From: Cyclobacterium marinum DSM 745
Lineage (GTDB): Bacteria; Bacteroidota; Bacteroidia; Cytophagales; Cyclobacteriaceae
DNA: 64,000 nucleotides
Reading direction: 5' to 3'
Assembly: GCF_000222485.1 (NCBI RefSeq)
Contig: NC_015914.1
Span: 3,048,501-3,112,500, forward strand
The position numbers and the translations under genes were made by a program. The notes beneath the pieces are model-generated. The model saw only the letters and a list, made by a program, of their open reading frames with translations. It did not search any database and was not told the DNA's origin. Numbering within the stretch: the first letter of the stretch is position 1; each line of letters opens with the position of its first letter. Below, one piece after another: positions 16,948-23,753 of the stretch.

Positions 16948-16979
16948 TTTGATTTTTAAAGGTGGAAGGGTTACATTTG
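16948..16979 (+). promoter_or_regulatory. Strong Bacteroidota promoter for the aromatic leader/operon
   Basis: TTTG at 16948-16951 and TACATTTG at 16972-16979 are separated by 20 bases, an almost ideal -33/-7 pair. The predicted start of transcription is at about 16983-16986, on top of the leader peptide ATG at 16984. The leader mRNA would therefore have almost no 5' untranslated region. The rest of the gap 16748-16947 shows nothing recognisable. Confidence 0.75.
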
Positions 16980-16983
16980 ACGC

Positions 16984-17079
16984 ATGAAAAATTTCGCAGC
17001 TACGTATTTTAGCTTCTTTTACTTTTACTTTCGTCCCCAAGGTCGAATCGGAGCTGCGTATTGTCTTGATAAAAAATAA
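16984..17079 (+). CDS. Phe/Tyr-rich leader peptide of the aromatic amino-acid operon
   Basis: A 31-codon open frame begins MKNFAATY and contains the run YFSFFYFYF: six of six consecutive codons at 17014-17031 are Phe or Tyr (F F Y F Y F). It ends AAYCLDKK and TAA at 17077-17079. It sits between a strong promoter and an intrinsic terminator, upstream of DAHP synthase/chorismate mutase. Known attenuator leaders for Phe operons are similarly short and carry Phe runs. I infer that ribosomes stalling at these codons when charged tRNA-Phe or tRNA-Tyr is scarce allow read-through into the operon. It may be leaderless or nearly so. Confidence 0.8.
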   Translation: MKNFAATYFSFFYFYFRPQGRIGAAYCLDKK

Positions 17080-17128
17080 AAAAAGATAAATCACATAGAA
17101 GCCCGATTCGAAAGAGTCGGGCTTTTTT
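16995..17128 (+). promoter_or_regulatory. Ribosome-mediated transcription attenuator with mutually exclusive hairpins
   Basis: Four segments can be read. Segment 1 (16995-17001) is perfectly complementary to segment 2 at 17052-17058 (7 bp). The adjoining part of segment 2 (17043-17051) is perfectly complementary to segment 3 at 17103-17111 (9 bp, antiterminator). Segment 3 (17099-17108) also forms the terminator stem with segment 4 (17115-17124, 10 bp with one G-U), followed by six T. The Phe/Tyr codons lie between segments 1 and 2, so a stalled ribosome would cover segment 1 and favour the 2:3 antiterminator. Pairings are seen directly; the mechanism is inferred. Confidence 0.78.
17099..17128 (+). 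terminator. Attenuator terminator upstream of DAHP synthase/chorismate mutase
   Basis: Ten-bp stem 17099-17108 with 17115-17124 (one G-U pair), loop CGAAAG, then TTTTTT through 17128. It lies 29 bases before the ATG of the structural gene and after the leader peptide stop, where it can only act as a regulatory terminator. Confidence 0.85.
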
Positions 17129-17157
17129 ATTTTAATATTAAACCGAAGAATAAGGAA

Positions 17158-18264
17158 ATGGAAAATCACTTACAAACAAAAGACTGGGGTTTAGGCCTTA
17201 ACAATGAGCACCTGATTATTGCAGGGCCATGTAGTGCCGAAACTCCTGAGCAGATCGAGAAGGTTTGCCAAGACATGATCACCGCCAATGTTATCCCTGA
17301 TGTGTTCAGAGCAGGTATTTGGAAGCCAAGAACTAGGCCGGGAAGTTTCGAAGGTATCGGAGAAGATGGATTGAAGTGGATGGAAATCGTACGTGAAAAA
17401 CTTAATATTCCTATCACCACAGAGGTAGGGAATGCAGCACACGTAGAAATGGCTTTGAAGCATGATGTAGACATTCTTTGGATAGGAGCTAGAACTACTG
17501 TAAACCCTTTCGCAGTTCAAGAGATTGCAGACGCTCTTAAAGGTGTGGATATTCCTGTAATGGTGAAAAACCCAATGAACCCTGATCTTGAACTTTGGAG
17601 AGGTGCATTGGAAAGGCTTCAAGCTGTAGGAATTAATAAGCTTGCTGCAATCCACAGAGGGTTCAGTGATGCTTATGACAAGAAATTCCGTAACAAGCCT
17701 AACTGGTCTATGCCGATTCATTTGAAAAGGTTATGGAAAGGAATGCAAGTAATCAATGATCCTAGTCATATTGTAGGTAACAGGAAAGGAATTCTTGAAA
17801 CATCTCAACGTGCGATTAATTTCGGTTTAGATGGTTTAATGATTGAAACACACCATGATCCTGATAATGCATGGAGTGATGCCAAACAACAAGTAACTCC
17901 TCAGCAACTTAGGGATATTTTGGACAAAATTGATTTCAAACATCCTGTAGAAAATGAGCATCCTTCAGAAAAACTTCAAGATTTAAGAAATGCTGTTGAT
18001 CACCTAGATGACCAATTGCTAGATCTTTTGGCCGAGAGATTTGCTATTATTGATCAAATTGGTGCACACAAACGTGAAAATAATCTAACTGTTTTTCAGG
18101 CAGATCGCTGGAAGCAAGTGATGGAATCCAGAACCAAGAATGGTGTGGACAAAAACCTTAGCGAAAAATTCATGAAAGAATTACTTTATTGCATTCATGA
18201 AGAATCTGTAAAGCGTCAAGAAAAAAAATTACGAGAAGACATTTCTGAGAAGAAATCAGTTTGA
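17158..18264 (+). CDS. Bifunctional 3-deoxy-7-phosphoheptulonate synthase / chorismate mutase
   Basis: 368 residues. The N-terminal part (about 1-265) is a type I beta/KDO8P-like DAHP synthase: LIIAGPCSAETPEQ, FRAGIWKPRTRPGSFEG, TTEVGNAAHVEMAL, VMVKNPMNPD, AAIHRGFSDAYDKKFRN, VINDPSHIVGNR and LMIETHHDPDNAWSDAKQQ. The C-terminal 90 residues are an AroQ-type chorismate mutase (DLRNAVDHLDDQLLDLLAER through IHEESVKRQ, with the K-R-E-N motif). The protein thus holds the first step of the shikimate pathway and the branch step to Phe/Tyr. The fusion is typical for Bacteroidota and suggests allosteric cross-talk. It is preceded by the attenuator and heads the aroB-aroA-pheA-aminotransferase-tyrA block. 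Confidence 0.95.
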   Translation: MENHLQTKDWGLGLNNEHLIIAGPCSAETPEQIEKVCQDMITANVIPDVFRAGIWKPRTRPGSFEGIGEDGLKWMEIVREKLNIPITTEVGNAAHVEMALKHDVDILWIGARTTVNPFAVQEIADALKGVDIPVMVKNPMNPDLELWRGALERLQAVGINKLAAIHRGFSDAYDKKFRNKPNWSMPIHLKRLWKGMQVINDPSHIVGNRKGILETSQRAINFGLDGLMIETHHDPDNAWSDAKQQVTPQQLRDILDKIDFKHPVENEHPSEKLQDLRNAVDHLDDQLLDLLAERFAIIDQIGAHKRENNLTVFQADRWKQVMESRTKNGVDKNLSEKFMKELLYCIHEESVKRQEKKLREDISEKKSV

Positions 18265-18267
18265 TGC

Positions 18268-18467
18268 TTAAGCCCGTTTTTATTCTTAAATAATAAAAGC
18301 TGATAAGGTTCCATACATCATCCCTTGCCTTGACCTTAGGAAGGGATAATCCCCACAAAGGAGTTAATCCTTTTGGAAGAATTGGTACACATTATCAGAG
18401 GTTGGATGTCAAGAGTTTATTAAGCTTGTTCATTCGGTTTATTTTTAAGGGATAAAAACGGGTTTAA
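18268..18467 (+). repeat. Long-range inverted repeat between DAHPS/CM and aroB
   Basis: 16 bases at 18268-18283 are complementary to 18452-18467 with one G-U position, enclosing about 168 bases. A smaller hairpin sits inside (18321-18346, outer stem tccctt/aaggga). There is no T tract, so it is not a simple terminator. It could be an mRNA processing or regulatory structure in the 229-base gap. Confidence 0.4.
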
Positions 18468-18493
18468 TTTTTACCTTTACAAAAAAACAGATT

Positions 18494-19531
18494 TTGGAAA
18501 CAATTATATTTTCTTCCCGAATAGCACAGGATTTGACACGATTCCTTGATTCAAAAAAATACTCCAAACTTGGAGTTATCATGGACAGCAATACAGTCAA
18601 ACACTGTTACCCTTTGGTTTCAACCCATCTTCCAGAACATTCAAGTTTTATATTTGAAGCAGGAGAAGTGAACAAAACCCTAGATACATGTGTGAAAATT
18701 TGGGATTGGATGACGGAGAATAGCTTTGACCGTAAAACCCTTATACTCAATATTGGGGGTGGAGTGACCGGAGATATGGGGGGCTTTTGTGCCAGTACTT
18801 ATAAAAGAGGGATACGCTTTATTAATCTGCCAACTACCCTATTGTCTCAAGTGGATGCCAGTGTTGGAGGGAAGCTAGGAATTGATTTCAAAGGTTTCAA
18901 AAACCATATAGGTGTATTCAATCAGCCTGAAGGGGTTTTAATAGGAGAAGAGTTCTTGGGTACCCTTCCTGAGCCTGAACTGCGATCCGGCTATGCTGAA
19001 GTAATCAAGCATGGGCTGATTAGGAATGTAAACTATTTTAATAGCCTAAAAACCGAAAATTGGCAGGCTCAATCTTGGAAGGATATTATCTCTGTATCTG
19101 TAGGAATCAAAAGAGATGTTGTTGACAAGGACCCAAAAGAAGATGGTTTAAGAAAAATCTTAAATTTCGGCCATACCATAGGGCATGCTGTAGAGTCTTA
19201 CTATCTTGATACCCCTTTCCATTTATTGCATGGGGAGGCCATAGCAATTGGCATGATCGCTGAAGCTTACCTTTCCCATAAATTTTTACGATTACCAAAG
19301 GAAGAACTTGGGATTATACAGGAGAATCTTTTGGCAGTATTTGGAAAAATTCAAATTGATAAAAAAGGCTTTGATACCATCATAGACCTGTGTTTCCAAG
19401 ACAAGAAAAACGAAGGGAATGCGTTGAATTTTTCTCTGCTCAAAAGAATTGGAGAATGTGATTTCAATATAGTAGTAGGGAGAGAGGCAGTTGCAGAGGC
19501 CTTGGATTATTACAATCAATTGTCCAATTGA
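18494..19531 (+). CDS. aroB: 3-dehydroquinate synthase
   Basis: Cyclises DAHP to 3-dehydroquinate (second shikimate step) using NAD and a divalent metal. 345 residues. The NAD-binding segment is NIGGGVTGDMGGFCASTYKRGI, followed by INLPTTLLSQVDASVGGKLGID. The metal ligands appear in SGYAEVIKHGL, LNFGHTIGHAVE and LLHGEAIAIGM. No ATG lies near the true N terminus: the first in-frame ATG (MDSNTV) would cut about 29 family-conserved residues, so the TTG at 18494 is the likely start. A TACCTTTA box at 18472-18479 (7 of 8 bases of the -7 consensus) may give an internal promoter. Confidence 0.94.
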   Translation: METIIFSSRIAQDLTRFLDSKKYSKLGVIMDSNTVKHCYPLVSTHLPEHSSFIFEAGEVNKTLDTCVKIWDWMTENSFDRKTLILNIGGGVTGDMGGFCASTYKRGIRFINLPTTLLSQVDASVGGKLGIDFKGFKNHIGVFNQPEGVLIGEEFLGTLPEPELRSGYAEVIKHGLIRNVNYFNSLKTENWQAQSWKDIISVSVGIKRDVVDKDPKEDGLRKILNFGHTIGHAVESYYLDTPFHLLHGEAIAIGMIAEAYLSHKFLRLPKEELGIIQENLLAVFGKIQIDKKGFDTIIDLCFQDKKNEGNALNFSLLKRIGECDFNIVVGREAVAEALDYYNQLSN

Positions 19532-19590: not shown

Positions 19591-20820
19591 ATGAATACTA
19601 TTGTACTGCCTAAAAAAGAATCATTTGGTCAAATCCAAATACCATTGCCCTCCTCAAAAAGTGAAAGCAACAGGGTTTTAATCATTGATGCCCTTACCAA
19701 AGGAGAAAATAAACTGTCTAACCTTGCTGAAGCAAGGGATACCCAAACAATGATCCGGCTCCTAAGAGATGACCCGGAAACATTAAATGTGTTGGACGCC
19801 GGAACGACGATGCGGTTTTTGACAGCTTATGCAGCCTTAAATAACAAGCAAAAGATTATGACAGGTACTCCACGAATGTGTGAGCGACCCATTGGGATTT
19901 TGGTAGATGCCTTGAGAGATCTCGGTGCTAATATCAATTACCTCAAAAAGGAAGGCTACCCTCCATTGTCCATAGAAGGTTTTTCAGGTCAAAAAACAAG
20001 TGAGATAGAAATTAGAGGAGATGTAAGTAGTCAGTATATTTCTGCGTTGCTAATGAATGCCCCTTTATTACCGCAAGGATTGGTATTAAACCTTACCGGT
20101 AAAATTGGTTCGAGGACCTATATCACCATGACCTTGGAATTAATGAAGGAATTCGGTGTGGATTATATTTTTGAAGGAAGCAGAATTGAAATAAAGCCCG
20201 GTGCGTATGTTCCAACCACCTTTGCTGTAGAAAGCGATTGGTCGGGGGCAAGCTACTGGTTTAGCTTATTGGCCTGTGCAGATGAAGGTGAGCTTTTCCT
20301 TAAAGGACTTAAGGCAGATAGCTTACAGGGAGATGCTATGATTGTAGGGATAATGGACCAATTAGGCGTTCAAAGTGAATTTCAGGAGACTGGCATATCC
20401 CTTAAGAAAAAAGAAGTTCGTGGTTTGCCAAGCTTCGATTTTACACATTGCCCGGACTTGGCGCAGACAGTAGCTGTCACTTGTGCCTTAATAGGACAAA
20501 CATCAGAGTTTTCAGGCTTGGAAAGTTTGAGGATTAAAGAAACGGACCGTATTGATGCCTTGCAAAAAGAATTGGCAAAAATTGGGGCTTTGTTGGAAGA
20601 ACGAAAAGAGGGTGTTTTCACACTAGTACCCGCCACAAAATTACCTGCAAAGGTAAAAGTGGCTACATATGATGACCATAGGATGGCCATGGCATTTATG
20701 CCATTAATTACCAAAACTGCCTTGGAAATTGAAGAACCAGATGTGGTCAATAAATCCTATCCAAGTTTCTGGAAACATTGTGCTTTACTGGGTATTCAGC
20801 CAAAGCACAGTAATGACTAA
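19591..20820 (+). CDS. aroA: 3-phosphoshikimate 1-carboxyvinyltransferase (EPSP synthase)
   Basis: Transfers enolpyruvate from PEP to shikimate-3-phosphate, the step inhibited by glyphosate. 409 residues, two inside-out alpha/beta domains. Visible substrate contacts are PLPSSKSESNRVLIIDAL (Lys/Ser/Arg), LDAGTTMRFLTAYAAL, RMCERPIGILVDAL, GDVSSQYISALLM, ESDWSGASYWFSLLACA, RIKETDRIDALQKEL and DDHRMAMAFMPL. The DAGTTMRF loop replaces the more usual NAGTxxR form by one residue, as often seen in Bacteroidota. ATG at 19591, 59 bases after aroB; same operon by spacing and pathway. Confidence 0.94.
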   Translation: MNTIVLPKKESFGQIQIPLPSSKSESNRVLIIDALTKGENKLSNLAEARDTQTMIRLLRDDPETLNVLDAGTTMRFLTAYAALNNKQKIMTGTPRMCERPIGILVDALRDLGANINYLKKEGYPPLSIEGFSGQKTSEIEIRGDVSSQYISALLMNAPLLPQGLVLNLTGKIGSRTYITMTLELMKEFGVDYIFEGSRIEIKPGAYVPTTFAVESDWSGASYWFSLLACADEGELFLKGLKADSLQGDAMIVGIMDQLGVQSEFQETGISLKKKEVRGLPSFDFTHCPDLAQTVAVTCALIGQTSEFSGLESLRIKETDRIDALQKELAKIGALLEERKEGVFTLVPATKLPAKVKVATYDDHRMAMAFMPLITKTALEIEEPDVVNKSYPSFWKHCALLGIQPKHSND

Positions 20821-20932
20821 CACAGGATAGGTGTTGTGTTATAAAGCAAACATACTGTGGTTATGTTGGATGGTTTCTACCATGCCTTGACTTTTGATCC
20901 TACCTTTTTAAATCTAAATTTTGAAAACAAAA

Positions 20933-21748
20933 ATGAAAATAGCAATACAGGGCGTTTTGGGCTCCTTTCACCATCAGGTTGCCCAGCAATATTTTGGAGA
21001 AGATATCGAGGTTTTTGGTTTCAATACTTTTGAAGAAGTAGCCAAAAGTGTTGCATCCGGAGCTGTGGATGTGGCTGTAATGGCCATAGAGAATTCAATT
21101 GCTGGTGCCATATTGCCCAATTATGACATCATCGATCGCCATGAACTTTACGTTGCTGATGAATATTATTTACCCATCTCTCATAATTTAATGGCGCTTC
21201 CTGGACAGCAACTTGCTGACATTAAAGAGGCCAGGTCACATCCAATGGCCTTGTTGCAATGCAAGAATTTCTTCGCAAAGCATCCGGGGATTCAACCTAT
21301 CGATGATGTGGACACGGCCTATATCGCAAAGATCATTTCCGAACAAAAAATAAAAGGTTTGGCTGCAGTGGCAAGCGTGAAAGCTGCAGAATTTTATGGT
21401 TTGGAAATGTTGGCTGAAGACATTCAGACCATAAAAAATAATTTTACAAGGTTTATCATTCTGCAAAAGGACAAACCCCAACATGAAACAACTCCTACTA
21501 AAGCAAGCCTAAAAATCACCATAAAAAATCAAAAAGGTGGTCTTGCAAAACTGCTCACTGTATTGAGTGACAATGACCTTGATTTAACAAAAATACAATC
21601 TATACCGGTGATGAGTAAGCCGTGGGAATATTCATTTTTTATCGATACACTTATTGCTGATGAGGCTAAGTTTAATAAGGCCATGGAGTTAATTGCCACT
21701 AATTATGGGGCTGTGAAAATTTTCGGTACTTATCAAAGTAGAAAATAA
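20933..21748 (+). CDS. pheA: Prephenate dehydratase with ACT domain
   Basis: Converts prephenate to phenylpyruvate, committing flux to phenylalanine. 271 residues: dehydratase domain about 1-180 with VLGSFHHQVAQQYF, AVMAIENSIAGAI and the catalytic KNNFTRFIIL (Thr-Arg-Phe); then an ACT regulatory domain (LKITIKNQKGGLAKLLTVL). The usual Phe-binding ESRP motif reads QSIP here (KIQSIPVMSKPWEYSFFID), so feedback inhibition may differ; the GGLAKLL half is kept. A TTG at 20921 is in frame, but the ATG at 20933 fits the family. The stop overlaps the next start by one base (TAATG). Confidence 0.93.
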   Translation: MKIAIQGVLGSFHHQVAQQYFGEDIEVFGFNTFEEVAKSVASGAVDVAVMAIENSIAGAILPNYDIIDRHELYVADEYYLPISHNLMALPGQQLADIKEARSHPMALLQCKNFFAKHPGIQPIDDVDTAYIAKIISEQKIKGLAAVASVKAAEFYGLEMLAEDIQTIKNNFTRFIILQKDKPQHETTPTKASLKITIKNQKGGLAKLLTVLSDNDLDLTKIQSIPVMSKPWEYSFFIDTLIADEAKFNKAMELIATNYGAVKIFGTYQSRK

Positions 21749-22899
21749 TGAAAGGATTTTCGGACAGACTCGGAGAGGTTCAGGAATACTATTTCTCCAA
21801 AAAGCTCAAAGAAGTTCAAAAACTCAGGGAATGTGGGAAGCCCATTATTAATATGGGTATAGGGAGTCCTGATCTCCCCCCGGATAAAAGCGTTATTGAG
21901 GCGTTGAAGCAGACGGCTGATTCTTCATCCGGACATGGATATCAATCTTACCAAGGAACTCCTGAGTTAAGAAATGCGATTTCAGCCTTTTATGATAGAA
22001 ATTATCAGGTGTCGCTAGATCCTGGTTCTGAAGTTTTGCCTTTAATGGGGTCGAAAGAAGGGATCATGCATGTTTCAATGGCTTTCCTAAATGAAGGGGA
22101 TGAGGTTCTCGTTCCCAATCCGGGATATCCTACTTATACTTCTGTGACCAAATTACTTAATGCCATTCCTGTTTATTATTCGCTGAACGAAGGGGATAAT
22201 TGGGCGCCTGATTGGGAGGAATTGGAGGCAATGAATCTTTCTAAAGTGAAGTTGATGTGGGTAAATTACCCTCATATGCCTACAGGAGCCAATGGGAATG
22301 ATGCTTTGTTTAAGAAGTTGATTGAATTTGCTAAAAAACACAATATTCTTTTGGTACATGACAATCCCTATAGCTTTATTTTAAATGATACCCCAAAAAG
22401 TATATTGGCAATTCCGGAGGCAAAGGACCATGCTTTAGAGTTAAACTCCTTAAGCAAAACCTTTAATATCCCGGGATGGAGAGTTGGAATGCTTGCCGGT
22501 CGAAAAGATTATTTGGAGGCGGTTTTAAGAGTGAAAAGCAATATGGATTCAGGAATGTTTTTGGGATTACAGGCCGGAGCTGTTGCTGCCCTTAATCTAA
22601 ATCAGTCTTGGATCAAGAACATGAATGCCCTATACGCCCGAAGAAAAGCTTTGGTTTTGGAAATGGCAACATTATTGCGTCTGGAAGTAAACGAAGATGC
22701 TGTAGGCATGTTTGTTTGGGGGAAAGTGCCTGAAGGTAAAAAAGCTACAGAAATTGTGGATCAATTGCTTTATGATTATGATATTTTCATTACCCCAGGT
22801 TTAATATTTGGAAGCAATGGGGCTTCATATGTTCGGTTTTCTTTGTGCATAGATGAAAGTAAAATTAAAGAAGCCATTGCAAGGTTAAAAAAACACTAA
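21748..22899 (+). CDS. Class I/II pyridoxal-phosphate aminotransferase, probable aromatic amino-acid transaminase
   Basis: 383 residues of fold type I. The N terminus INMGIGSPDLPPD, the NPGYPTY substrate loop, YPHMPTGAN, VHDNPYSFI and the PLP lysine in ELNSLSKTFNIPGWRVGM are all intact. The family also contains aspartate and LL-diaminopimelate aminotransferases. Its position between pheA (prephenate dehydratase) and tyrA, overlapping pheA by one base, argues that it aminates phenylpyruvate and 4-hydroxyphenylpyruvate. That specificity is inferred from context, not from residues. Confidence 0.9.
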   Translation: MKGFSDRLGEVQEYYFSKKLKEVQKLRECGKPIINMGIGSPDLPPDKSVIEALKQTADSSSGHGYQSYQGTPELRNAISAFYDRNYQVSLDPGSEVLPLMGSKEGIMHVSMAFLNEGDEVLVPNPGYPTYTSVTKLLNAIPVYYSLNEGDNWAPDWEELEAMNLSKVKLMWVNYPHMPTGANGNDALFKKLIEFAKKHNILLVHDNPYSFILNDTPKSILAIPEAKDHALELNSLSKTFNIPGWRVGMLAGRKDYLEAVLRVKSNMDSGMFLGLQAGAVAALNLNQSWIKNMNALYARRKALVLEMATLLRLEVNEDAVGMFVWGKVPEGKKATEIVDQLLYDYDIFITPGLIFGSNGASYVRFSLCIDESKIKEAIARLKKH

Positions 22900-22904
22900 A
22901 CGCT

Positions 22905-23753
22905 ATGAAAAAGATACATATCATAGGATTGGGATTGTTGGGAGGTTCTTTTGCCCTGGCAACAAAAAAAGCAAAACCTGAAATGGAGATCACAGGTTTT
23001 GATAGCGACGAGCAAAATATAGCAATTGCTTTGGAAATGGGACTTATTGCTAAATCTCTTTCCGTTCCGGATAAGGATACGGATTTGGTGATTTTAGCAA
23101 CACCAGTTGATACTTTATTTGATCTTTTGGTTAAAACCTTGGATCAAATTGGTGAGCATACCCTTGTAATGGATTTTGGGTCTACCAAAGACCAGCTTTG
23201 CCGTCAAATTACTGAGCACCCTAAAAGAGCTCAATACTTGGCAGTGCATCCAATTGCGGGTACTGAAAATTCAGGTCCCAAAGCAGCAAAGGAAGACCTT
23301 TTTGATGGGAATGTGATGATCATTTGCGAAATGGAAAAAACAGATGTACACCTTAAGGGGATGGCCTATGATATTTTTGATGCGCTCAACCTCAGGTTGC
23401 GCTTTATGGACCCAAAAGATCATGACCTTCATCTTGCTTTTGTTTCACACCTTTCTCACGCAACCTCCTTCGTCTTGGGGAAAACGGTTATTGATAAAAC
23501 CGCTGATGAAAGAAATATTCTGGACATGGCAGGAAGTGGCTTTGCTTCCACAGTTAGGCTGGCCAAAAGCTCTCCCGAAATGTGGGGCCCTATTTTTATT
23601 GAAAATAAAACCAATGTGCTTGAAGCCCTGAATAGCTATATTGACCATCTTGCAGTCTTCAGAGATAAAATTGAAGCAGGTGATATTCAGGGTTTGAAGG
23701 ATGAAATGTTAGAGGCCAATAAAATTAGAAATATTCTGAATTTCACAGAATAA
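22905..23753 (+). CDS. tyrA: Prephenate dehydrogenase
   Basis: Oxidative decarboxylation of prephenate to 4-hydroxyphenylpyruvate for tyrosine synthesis. 282 residues. N-terminal Rossmann fold IHIIGLGLLGGSFALATKK with an acidic residue after strand 2 (GFDSD), indicating NAD preference. VMDFGSTKD, AVHPIAGTENSGPKAA (catalytic His region) and AFVSHLSHATSFVLG are characteristic. No ACT domain follows, so Tyr feedback would have to act elsewhere. It starts 5 bases after the aminotransferase and ends the aromatic block. Confidence 0.94.
   Translation: MKKIHIIGLGLLGGSFALATKKAKPEMEITGFDSDEQNIAIALEMGLIAKSLSVPDKDTDLVILATPVDTLFDLLVKTLDQIGEHTLVMDFGSTKDQLCRQITEHPKRAQYLAVHPIAGTENSGPKAAKEDLFDGNVMIICEMEKTDVHLKGMAYDIFDALNLRLRFMDPKDHDLHLAFVSHLSHATSFVLGKTVIDKTADERNILDMAGSGFASTVRLAKSSPEMWGPIFIENKTNVLEALNSYIDHLAVFRDKIEAGDIQGLKDEMLEANKIRNILNFTE

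Follow-up and report, generated by a model that had tools for sequence, protein, structure and literature searches.

The gene for the DAHP synthase-chorismate mutase fusion enzyme (DAHPS-CM) of Cyclobacterium marinum DSM 745 is very probably controlled by ribosome-mediated transcription attenuation in response to charged tRNA-Phe and tRNA-Tyr, and the genes behind it probably are too. The element lies in the window, the whole 64,000-nt stretch of DNA analysed here, which comes from a genome of a single 6.22 Mb contig. The reading as Phe/Tyr attenuation had been put forward in a first-pass annotation of the same DNA and is supported by a conserved leader, conserved control codons, a terminator and an antiterminator. 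The features of the locus are as follows.

16948..16951, + strand: -33 promoter element TTTG (sequence; close to the 5′ edge of the block conserved in 12/12 genus genomes; consensus from sections of PMC7366714)
16972..16979, + strand: -7 promoter element TACATTTG (TAnnTTTG), giving a predicted +1 at 16984 (sequence; box position from sections of PMC9723704)
16984..17079, + strand: leader peptide frame, 31 codons plus TAA (sequence and conservation; start codon at the predicted +1)
16995..17001, + strand: 5′ arm of the 1:2 hairpin, CGCAGCT (fold, alignment, helix scoring)
17005..17031, + strand: control codons Tyr-Phe-Ser-Phe-Phe-Tyr-Phe-Tyr-Phe, codons 8-16 (genus and family conservation)
17043..17051, + strand: antiterminator 5′ arm TCGAATCGG, mostly R-I-G codons with near-invariant wobble bases (conservation)
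17052..17058, + strand: 3′ arm of the 1:2 hairpin, AGCTGCG (fold, alignment, helix scoring)
17097..17126, + strand: intrinsic terminator hairpin, then a T-rich tail (independent terminator scan, fold, conservation)
17103..17111, + strand: antiterminator 3′ arm CCGATTCGA, overlapping the terminator 5′ arm (conservation)
17158..18264, + strand: DAHP synthase/chorismate mutase fusion, first enzyme gene 3′ of the leader (NCBIfam, both domains matched with scores below the curated cut-offs)
18494..19531, + strand: aroB, 3-dehydroquinate synthase (NCBIfam, above cut-off)
19591..20820, + strand: aroA, 3-phosphoshikimate 1-carboxyvinyltransferase (NCBIfam, above cut-off)
20921..21748, + strand: pheA, prephenate dehydratase (NCBIfam, slightly below cut-off)
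21748..22899, + strand: aminotransferase (NCBIfam, below cut-offs)
22905..23753, + strand: tyrA, prephenate dehydrogenase (NCBIfam, above cut-off)

In the mechanism we propose, RNA polymerase would start at 16984 and the leader mRNA would open with its own AUG, on which a ribosome would have to load in leaderless mode. At a low supply of Phe or Tyr, this ribosome would stall within codons 8-16 and leave 17043-17051 free; a stall early in the F/Y run would put the 5′ arm of the 1:2 hairpin under the ribosome as well. The free segment would pair with 17103-17111, no terminator would form and transcription would continue. When both amino acids are plentiful, the ribosome would translate through the antiterminator arm and beyond it, so that the two antiterminator arms are hidden or held apart as the terminator forms, and transcription would stop near 17128. 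The codon content points to a response to both Phe and Tyr and to sensing of both products. The leader frame is presumably translated, leaderless ribosome loading is the likely route, and control probably reaches into the distal genes.

The leader frame runs from the ATG at 16984 to the TAA at 17077-17079 and encodes a peptide of 31 codons, MKNFAATYFSFFYFYFRPQGRIGAAYCLDKK, with six F/Y codons in succession at 17014-17031, just as first annotated. A run of six consecutive TWY codons occurs once in the window against 0.21 expected, and 15 of 100 shuffles had at least one, so the run on its own is weak evidence. The leader is taken as real because a peptide of the form MKxFAATYFSFFYFYFRPxxRIGAAYCL stands ahead of the DAHPS-CM gene in 12/12 Cyclobacterium genomes, which rules out a chance origin. 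The conserved block in these genomes spans approximately the -33 TTTG to the terminator; sequence farther upstream is hardly conserved.

Throughout the Cyclobacteriaceae the leader was present at 119 of 120 loci, 118 of them found by script and one (L130, which failed the script pattern) by eye. At the sole locus without it (L107), the matched stretch exceeds the gene length and has no start codon at its beginning. The 120 loci consist of 12 from the genus, 80 named loci and 28 from a family search, and genomes recur between these sets. The family search for DAHPS-CM covered 118 genomes, 104 of them with a relative at E up to 1e-100; upstream regions were read for 30 loci and 40 fetched stretches among its matches. 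The leader frame, aromatic codons and stems, which the first-pass annotation had proposed to look for in relatives, therefore recur in all 12 Cyclobacterium genomes and at all but one of the family loci.

The 118 script-matched leaders reduce to 90 distinct sequences, with L130 outside this set. Codons 9, 14 and 16 are Phe and codon 15 is Tyr in all 90; codon 11 is Phe in 89, and codon 13 is Tyr in 84 and Phe in 6. Codons 8-16 as a whole follow the pattern Y F (S/T) F F Y F Y F almost throughout (I in place of S/T in 4, W at codon 8 in 2), and the third base of several codons of the run varies synonymously. Codons 2-7 and 18-20 are far more variable than codons 8-16. The R-I-G codons behind the run are CGA in 88, ATC in 90 and GGA in 86 of the 90.

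The promoter ahead of the frame, also recognised in the first annotation, is of the Bacteroidota type, with TTTG at 16948-16951 and TACATTTG at 16972-16979; a sigma-70 scan reported no promoter at 16948-16979. The TAnnTTTG box of Flavobacterium psychrophilum spans -12 to -5, according to the sections of PMC9723704 compared. Since TACATTTG ends at 16979, this spacing would put +1 at 16984, the A of the AUG, a coincidence that the first-pass annotation had passed over, and the leader mRNA is accordingly predicted to be leaderless. Between the box, taken as TAnnTTT and one further base, and the ATG there are 4 nt in 85 of the 90 distinct sequences and 5 nt in the remaining five. An in-frame TGA at 16978-16980, immediately 5′ of the ATG, excludes a longer leader frame in the window. 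Leaderless mRNA is rare in Bacteroidota: sections of two papers give 5.5% of mRNAs in F. psychrophilum (PMC9723704) and, for Bacteroides thetaiotaomicron, about 3.7% of 5′ UTRs below 10 nt (PMC7366714).

The hairpins were scored in an alignment (A1) of the window and 67 named loci, 68 sequences of which 67 are distinct. It leaves out five loci whose terminator variant the script did not recognise (L051, L079, L086, L091, L094), all five of which are within the 90; by eye, the 1:2 arm is altered in L079, L091 and L094. The terminator arms pair as originally described, and an independent scan placed the terminator at 17097-17126. In A1, 99.0% of its cells are paired, and two of its pairs have changed on both sides. 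For the terminator and 1:2 taken together, the percentage paired and the covariation score lie above all 500 shuffles, but the number of pairs with both-side changes was reached by 114 of the 500, these shuffles being uncorrected for relatedness. The leader RNA folds with z = -3.85, and 1 of 200 shuffles folded as well.

The antiterminator helix (17043-17051 with 17103-17111) also pairs as claimed, with 97.3% of cells paired in A1 against 1-66% in slid controls. No covariation was found for it in A1, where it is near-invariant. Of the stems that the first-pass annotation had hoped to see covary, the terminator shows the both-side changes given above, and the case for the antiterminator is made by its conservation and by the invariance of its wobble bases. 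The antiterminator and the terminator are mutually exclusive, the terminator 5′ arm being common to both.

Folding of the free RNA gave the antiterminator a mean probability of 0.95, above 0.5 in 86 of 90 sequences. The expected contrast, below 0.5 in the free state and above 0.8 with a stalled ribosome, appeared in only 4 of 90. This preference holds with no ribosome on the RNA, so a transcript that goes untranslated might read through, which would run counter to the classical model. When a ribosome sits at the stop codon, the modelled probability of the antiterminator is still 0.87. In the window that ribosome would end about 8 nt past the antiterminator arm, and on steric grounds it should block antiterminator pairing. 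A moving ribosome that hides the arm or keeps the two arms apart is, we infer, the best explanation of the termination state. If a ribosome is assumed to cover 11 nt beyond the first A-site base, one that stalls at the last Phe codon would stop short of the antiterminator arm by 3 nt in 90 of 90 distinct sequences, so the F/Y run ends about where a stall would start to cover that arm.

The part played by the 1:2 hairpin is less clear-cut. Its arms (16995-17001 with 17052-17058) pair as claimed, and the first-pass annotation had it share arms with the other hairpins so that only one structure could form; this is true of the antiterminator and terminator and fails for the 1:2 and antiterminator helices, which are adjacent and have no base in common. 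Once the antiterminator 3′ arm exists, the antiterminator is also lower in energy than 1:2 in 88 of 90 sequences. These two points make 1:2 at most a kinetic protector, a role that we propose for it tentatively. The two helices could also coexist as a pseudoknot, a kind of structure that lies outside the nested folding model.

An attenuator of two hairpins, in which the ribosome does nothing except cover or separate the antiterminator arms and 1:2 has no role of its own, thus has a real chance of being correct, although we think the odds are against it. Besides the lack of a common base and the energetic advantage of the antiterminator, it can call on the shifting register of the 1:2 5′ arm between genera, which accounts for only 74.1% of cells in A1 being paired in the window's register, and on the seven of 90 sequences whose best 1:2 helix has 4 bp. 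Against it, arm-2 position 74, with the register allowed for, forms a standard pair in 81 of 90 sequences (G-C 44, A-U 32, G-U 5; non-standard in 9). The mean 1:2 helix score of 15.2 likewise exceeds that of partner swaps (14.2, maximum 14.7 of 500) and of codon shuffles (11.6, maximum 12.2 of 200). Finally, 1:2-type pairing forms first: as long as the antiterminator 3′ arm is still to be made, 75 of 90 sequences have a normalised 1:2 pairing above 0.5, and in 77 of 90 the antiterminator 5′ arm has a mean paired probability above that value.

Some diverged DAHPS-CM copies carry F/Y leaders unrelated in sequence to the one described above. These occurred in 9 of 40 fetched upstream stretches; eight of the nine had a terminator, and five had an antiterminator arm equalled by at most 5 of 100 shuffles. 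The ten diverged loci analysed for hairpins were picked from the 40 for having a leader or near-leader. No F/Y leader was found by the test in 31 fetched upstream stretches, the copies there being 43-55% identical.

In twelve genomes (among them L117 and L129; stretches L139-L150) the leader-bearing DAHPS-CM gene has another copy, of 43-48% identity, upstream of it at a distance of about 320-800 bp. By the same test these second copies have no F/Y leader.

The diverged leaders bear on a very different explanation, that the nascent leader peptide, and not the decoding of F/Y codons, halts the ribosome on a ligand. Such an arrest peptide would agree with the strong conservation of the peptide in the family, including RIGAxYC behind the run. 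The conserved tail, however, overlaps the antiterminator and 1:2 arms and the wobble bases of R-I-G are near-invariant, so the RNA explains the tail; in addition, Phe and Tyr interchange at codons 12 and 13, and the leaders of the diverged copies have the F/Y run in common but little else. We consider an arrest peptide highly improbable. Equally hard to credit is the view that the frame encodes a small protein, has a promoter of its own and ends in an ordinary terminator, with no attenuation of the genes downstream: promoter, frame and terminator alone would look alike, but by eye there is no second Bacteroidota-type promoter between the terminator and 17158, the terminator arm has a conserved complementary antiterminator, which is seen again with unrelated leaders, and the codon choice fits the pathway.

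Mixed F/Y leaders also precede pheA in other Bacteroidota, so the design is not peculiar to the DAHPS-CM operon. Among 27 pheA loci (L212-L238; 25 from other Bacteroidota families and two from Cyclobacteriaceae), 24 had an F/Y leader and 22 a terminator; in 19 there was an antiterminator arm equalled by at most 5 of 100 shuffles. These loci come from the best 30 of 128 genomes with a match, which are not a random sample, and L209-L211 were left out for having no leader. The pheA genes of the window's genome, L210 and L211 have no leader by the test; in each, the DAHPS-CM gene or its leader is found a few kb upstream in the same orientation.

Other amino acid operons were scored alongside. The host genome has a Trp leader at trpE (L276) and a possible His leader at hisG (L202); about 5 kb away from its trpE there is another DAHP synthase-like gene. 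At trpE loci (L259-L288) W-rich leaders were found in 30 of 30 by a loose test, mostly as WWW, and 27 of them were followed by a terminator. In only two did the tail of the leader contain an antiterminator arm equalled by at most 5 of 100 shuffles, and the trp attenuator may for this reason work differently. His-rich leaders stood at 22 of 30 hisG loci (L179-L208), several of them ending in HHFHHSS; a recognisable intrinsic terminator followed in only 9, and another mode of control is possible there.

Start-codon spacing differs among these groups. In the nine diverged family loci with unrelated F/Y leaders, the box lies 4 nt from the ATG in six (four genera), 6 nt in one and 8 nt in one, and one has no box. 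Where a -7 box was in reach of a pheA leader (11 of 24), the spacing to the script-chosen start codon is 8-24 nt, and 18-24 nt in 10 of the 11, so most of these would have a short 5′ UTR of normal length. The corresponding spacing, again to start codons chosen by script, is 4-21 nt at trpE (15 of 30 leaders, one at 4 nt) and 6-18 nt at hisG (11 of 22); at some his loci alternative start codons would shorten it. Given these values, leaderless starts as a rule for all attenuators of the family are unsupported.

For the Cyclobacteriaceae, together with the diverged members that have unrelated leaders, we lean towards a fixed leaderless Phe/Tyr sensor in which the two amino acids are read in OR fashion at the entry-and-branch-point enzyme, and whose output would also depend on leaderless (70S-type) initiation. 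Bacteroidota mRNAs lack Shine-Dalgarno sequences, and if the AUG start is true, the element would be a natural reporter for leaderless initiation in such bacteria. For the Bacteroidota the element is a tangible example of an amino acid sensor, well conserved and with its arms and codons defined, and judging by sequence, Phe/Tyr leaders with competing hairpins occur in several families of the phylum, at pheA or DAHPS-CM.

A covariance model proved unsuitable as a long-range finder and was rejected. In a search of the order, 35 of 148 genomes matched at E up to 0.01, with only five strong matches (143-165 bits), all inside Cyclobacteriaceae; one of these is the window's own element, the only match in its genome. 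Two further matches, of 64 and 52 bits, fall within one genus. Matches of at most 46 bits are presumed to be mostly chance; one of the weaker ones, at 42.9 bits, sits at a pheA leader.

In enterobacteria, the Phe leader consists of an attenuator and terminator ahead of aromatic genes, and the pheA leader codes for Phe only. The Cyclobacterium element resembles these attenuators in its proposed working, with a leader, a terminator and aromatic genes downstream. It differs in its mixed Phe and Tyr codons, in having the DAHPS-CM fusion as first gene, in its Bacteroidota-type promoter and in its predicted leaderless start. The whole Rfam model Phe_leader (RF01859) aligns with 16988-17130 at 30.6 bits (E 0.0021); membership was rejected, as the gathering score is 55. 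We regard the match as weak for this reason and since the unrelated BTnc231 is similar at E 0.0034. No family reached its gathering score in an Rfam scan of the window.

Leaderless attenuators have precedents. The Cys attenuators of mycobacteria are reportedly leaderless, in work by Canestrari from 2020. In the trpL attenuator of Sinorhizobium meliloti the leader start codon is the RNA 5′ end, as described in sections of PMC7298713. Both are leaderless like the predicted Cyclobacterium leader, but belong to other phyla and serve other amino acids. Closer in descent are the structured 5′ elements at pheA and hisG of F. psychrophilum, whose authors suspected leader-peptide attenuation at amino acid operons (sections of PMC9723704). 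They are from the same phylum and likewise stand at amino acid operons, whereas the Cyclobacterium attenuator occurs in another family and before another gene; the section compared gives no leader sequence. No description of the Cyclobacteriaceae element was found in the openly accessible literature that was searched. Attenuation and leaderless attenuators being already known, what appears to be new is a well-resolved, conserved and predicted leaderless Phe/Tyr attenuator in Cyclobacteriaceae.

The spacer between the DAHPS-CM gene and aroB (18262-18493) has a feature of its own. An imperfect inverted repeat, TTAARCCCGTTTT...AAAACGGGTTTAATTTTT, flanks a variable insert there in 12/12 Cyclobacterium genomes, and by eye is absent from ten printed loci of other genera. 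In the window, a TACCTTTA-like box stands 3′ of this repeat and may be a separate promoter for aroB.
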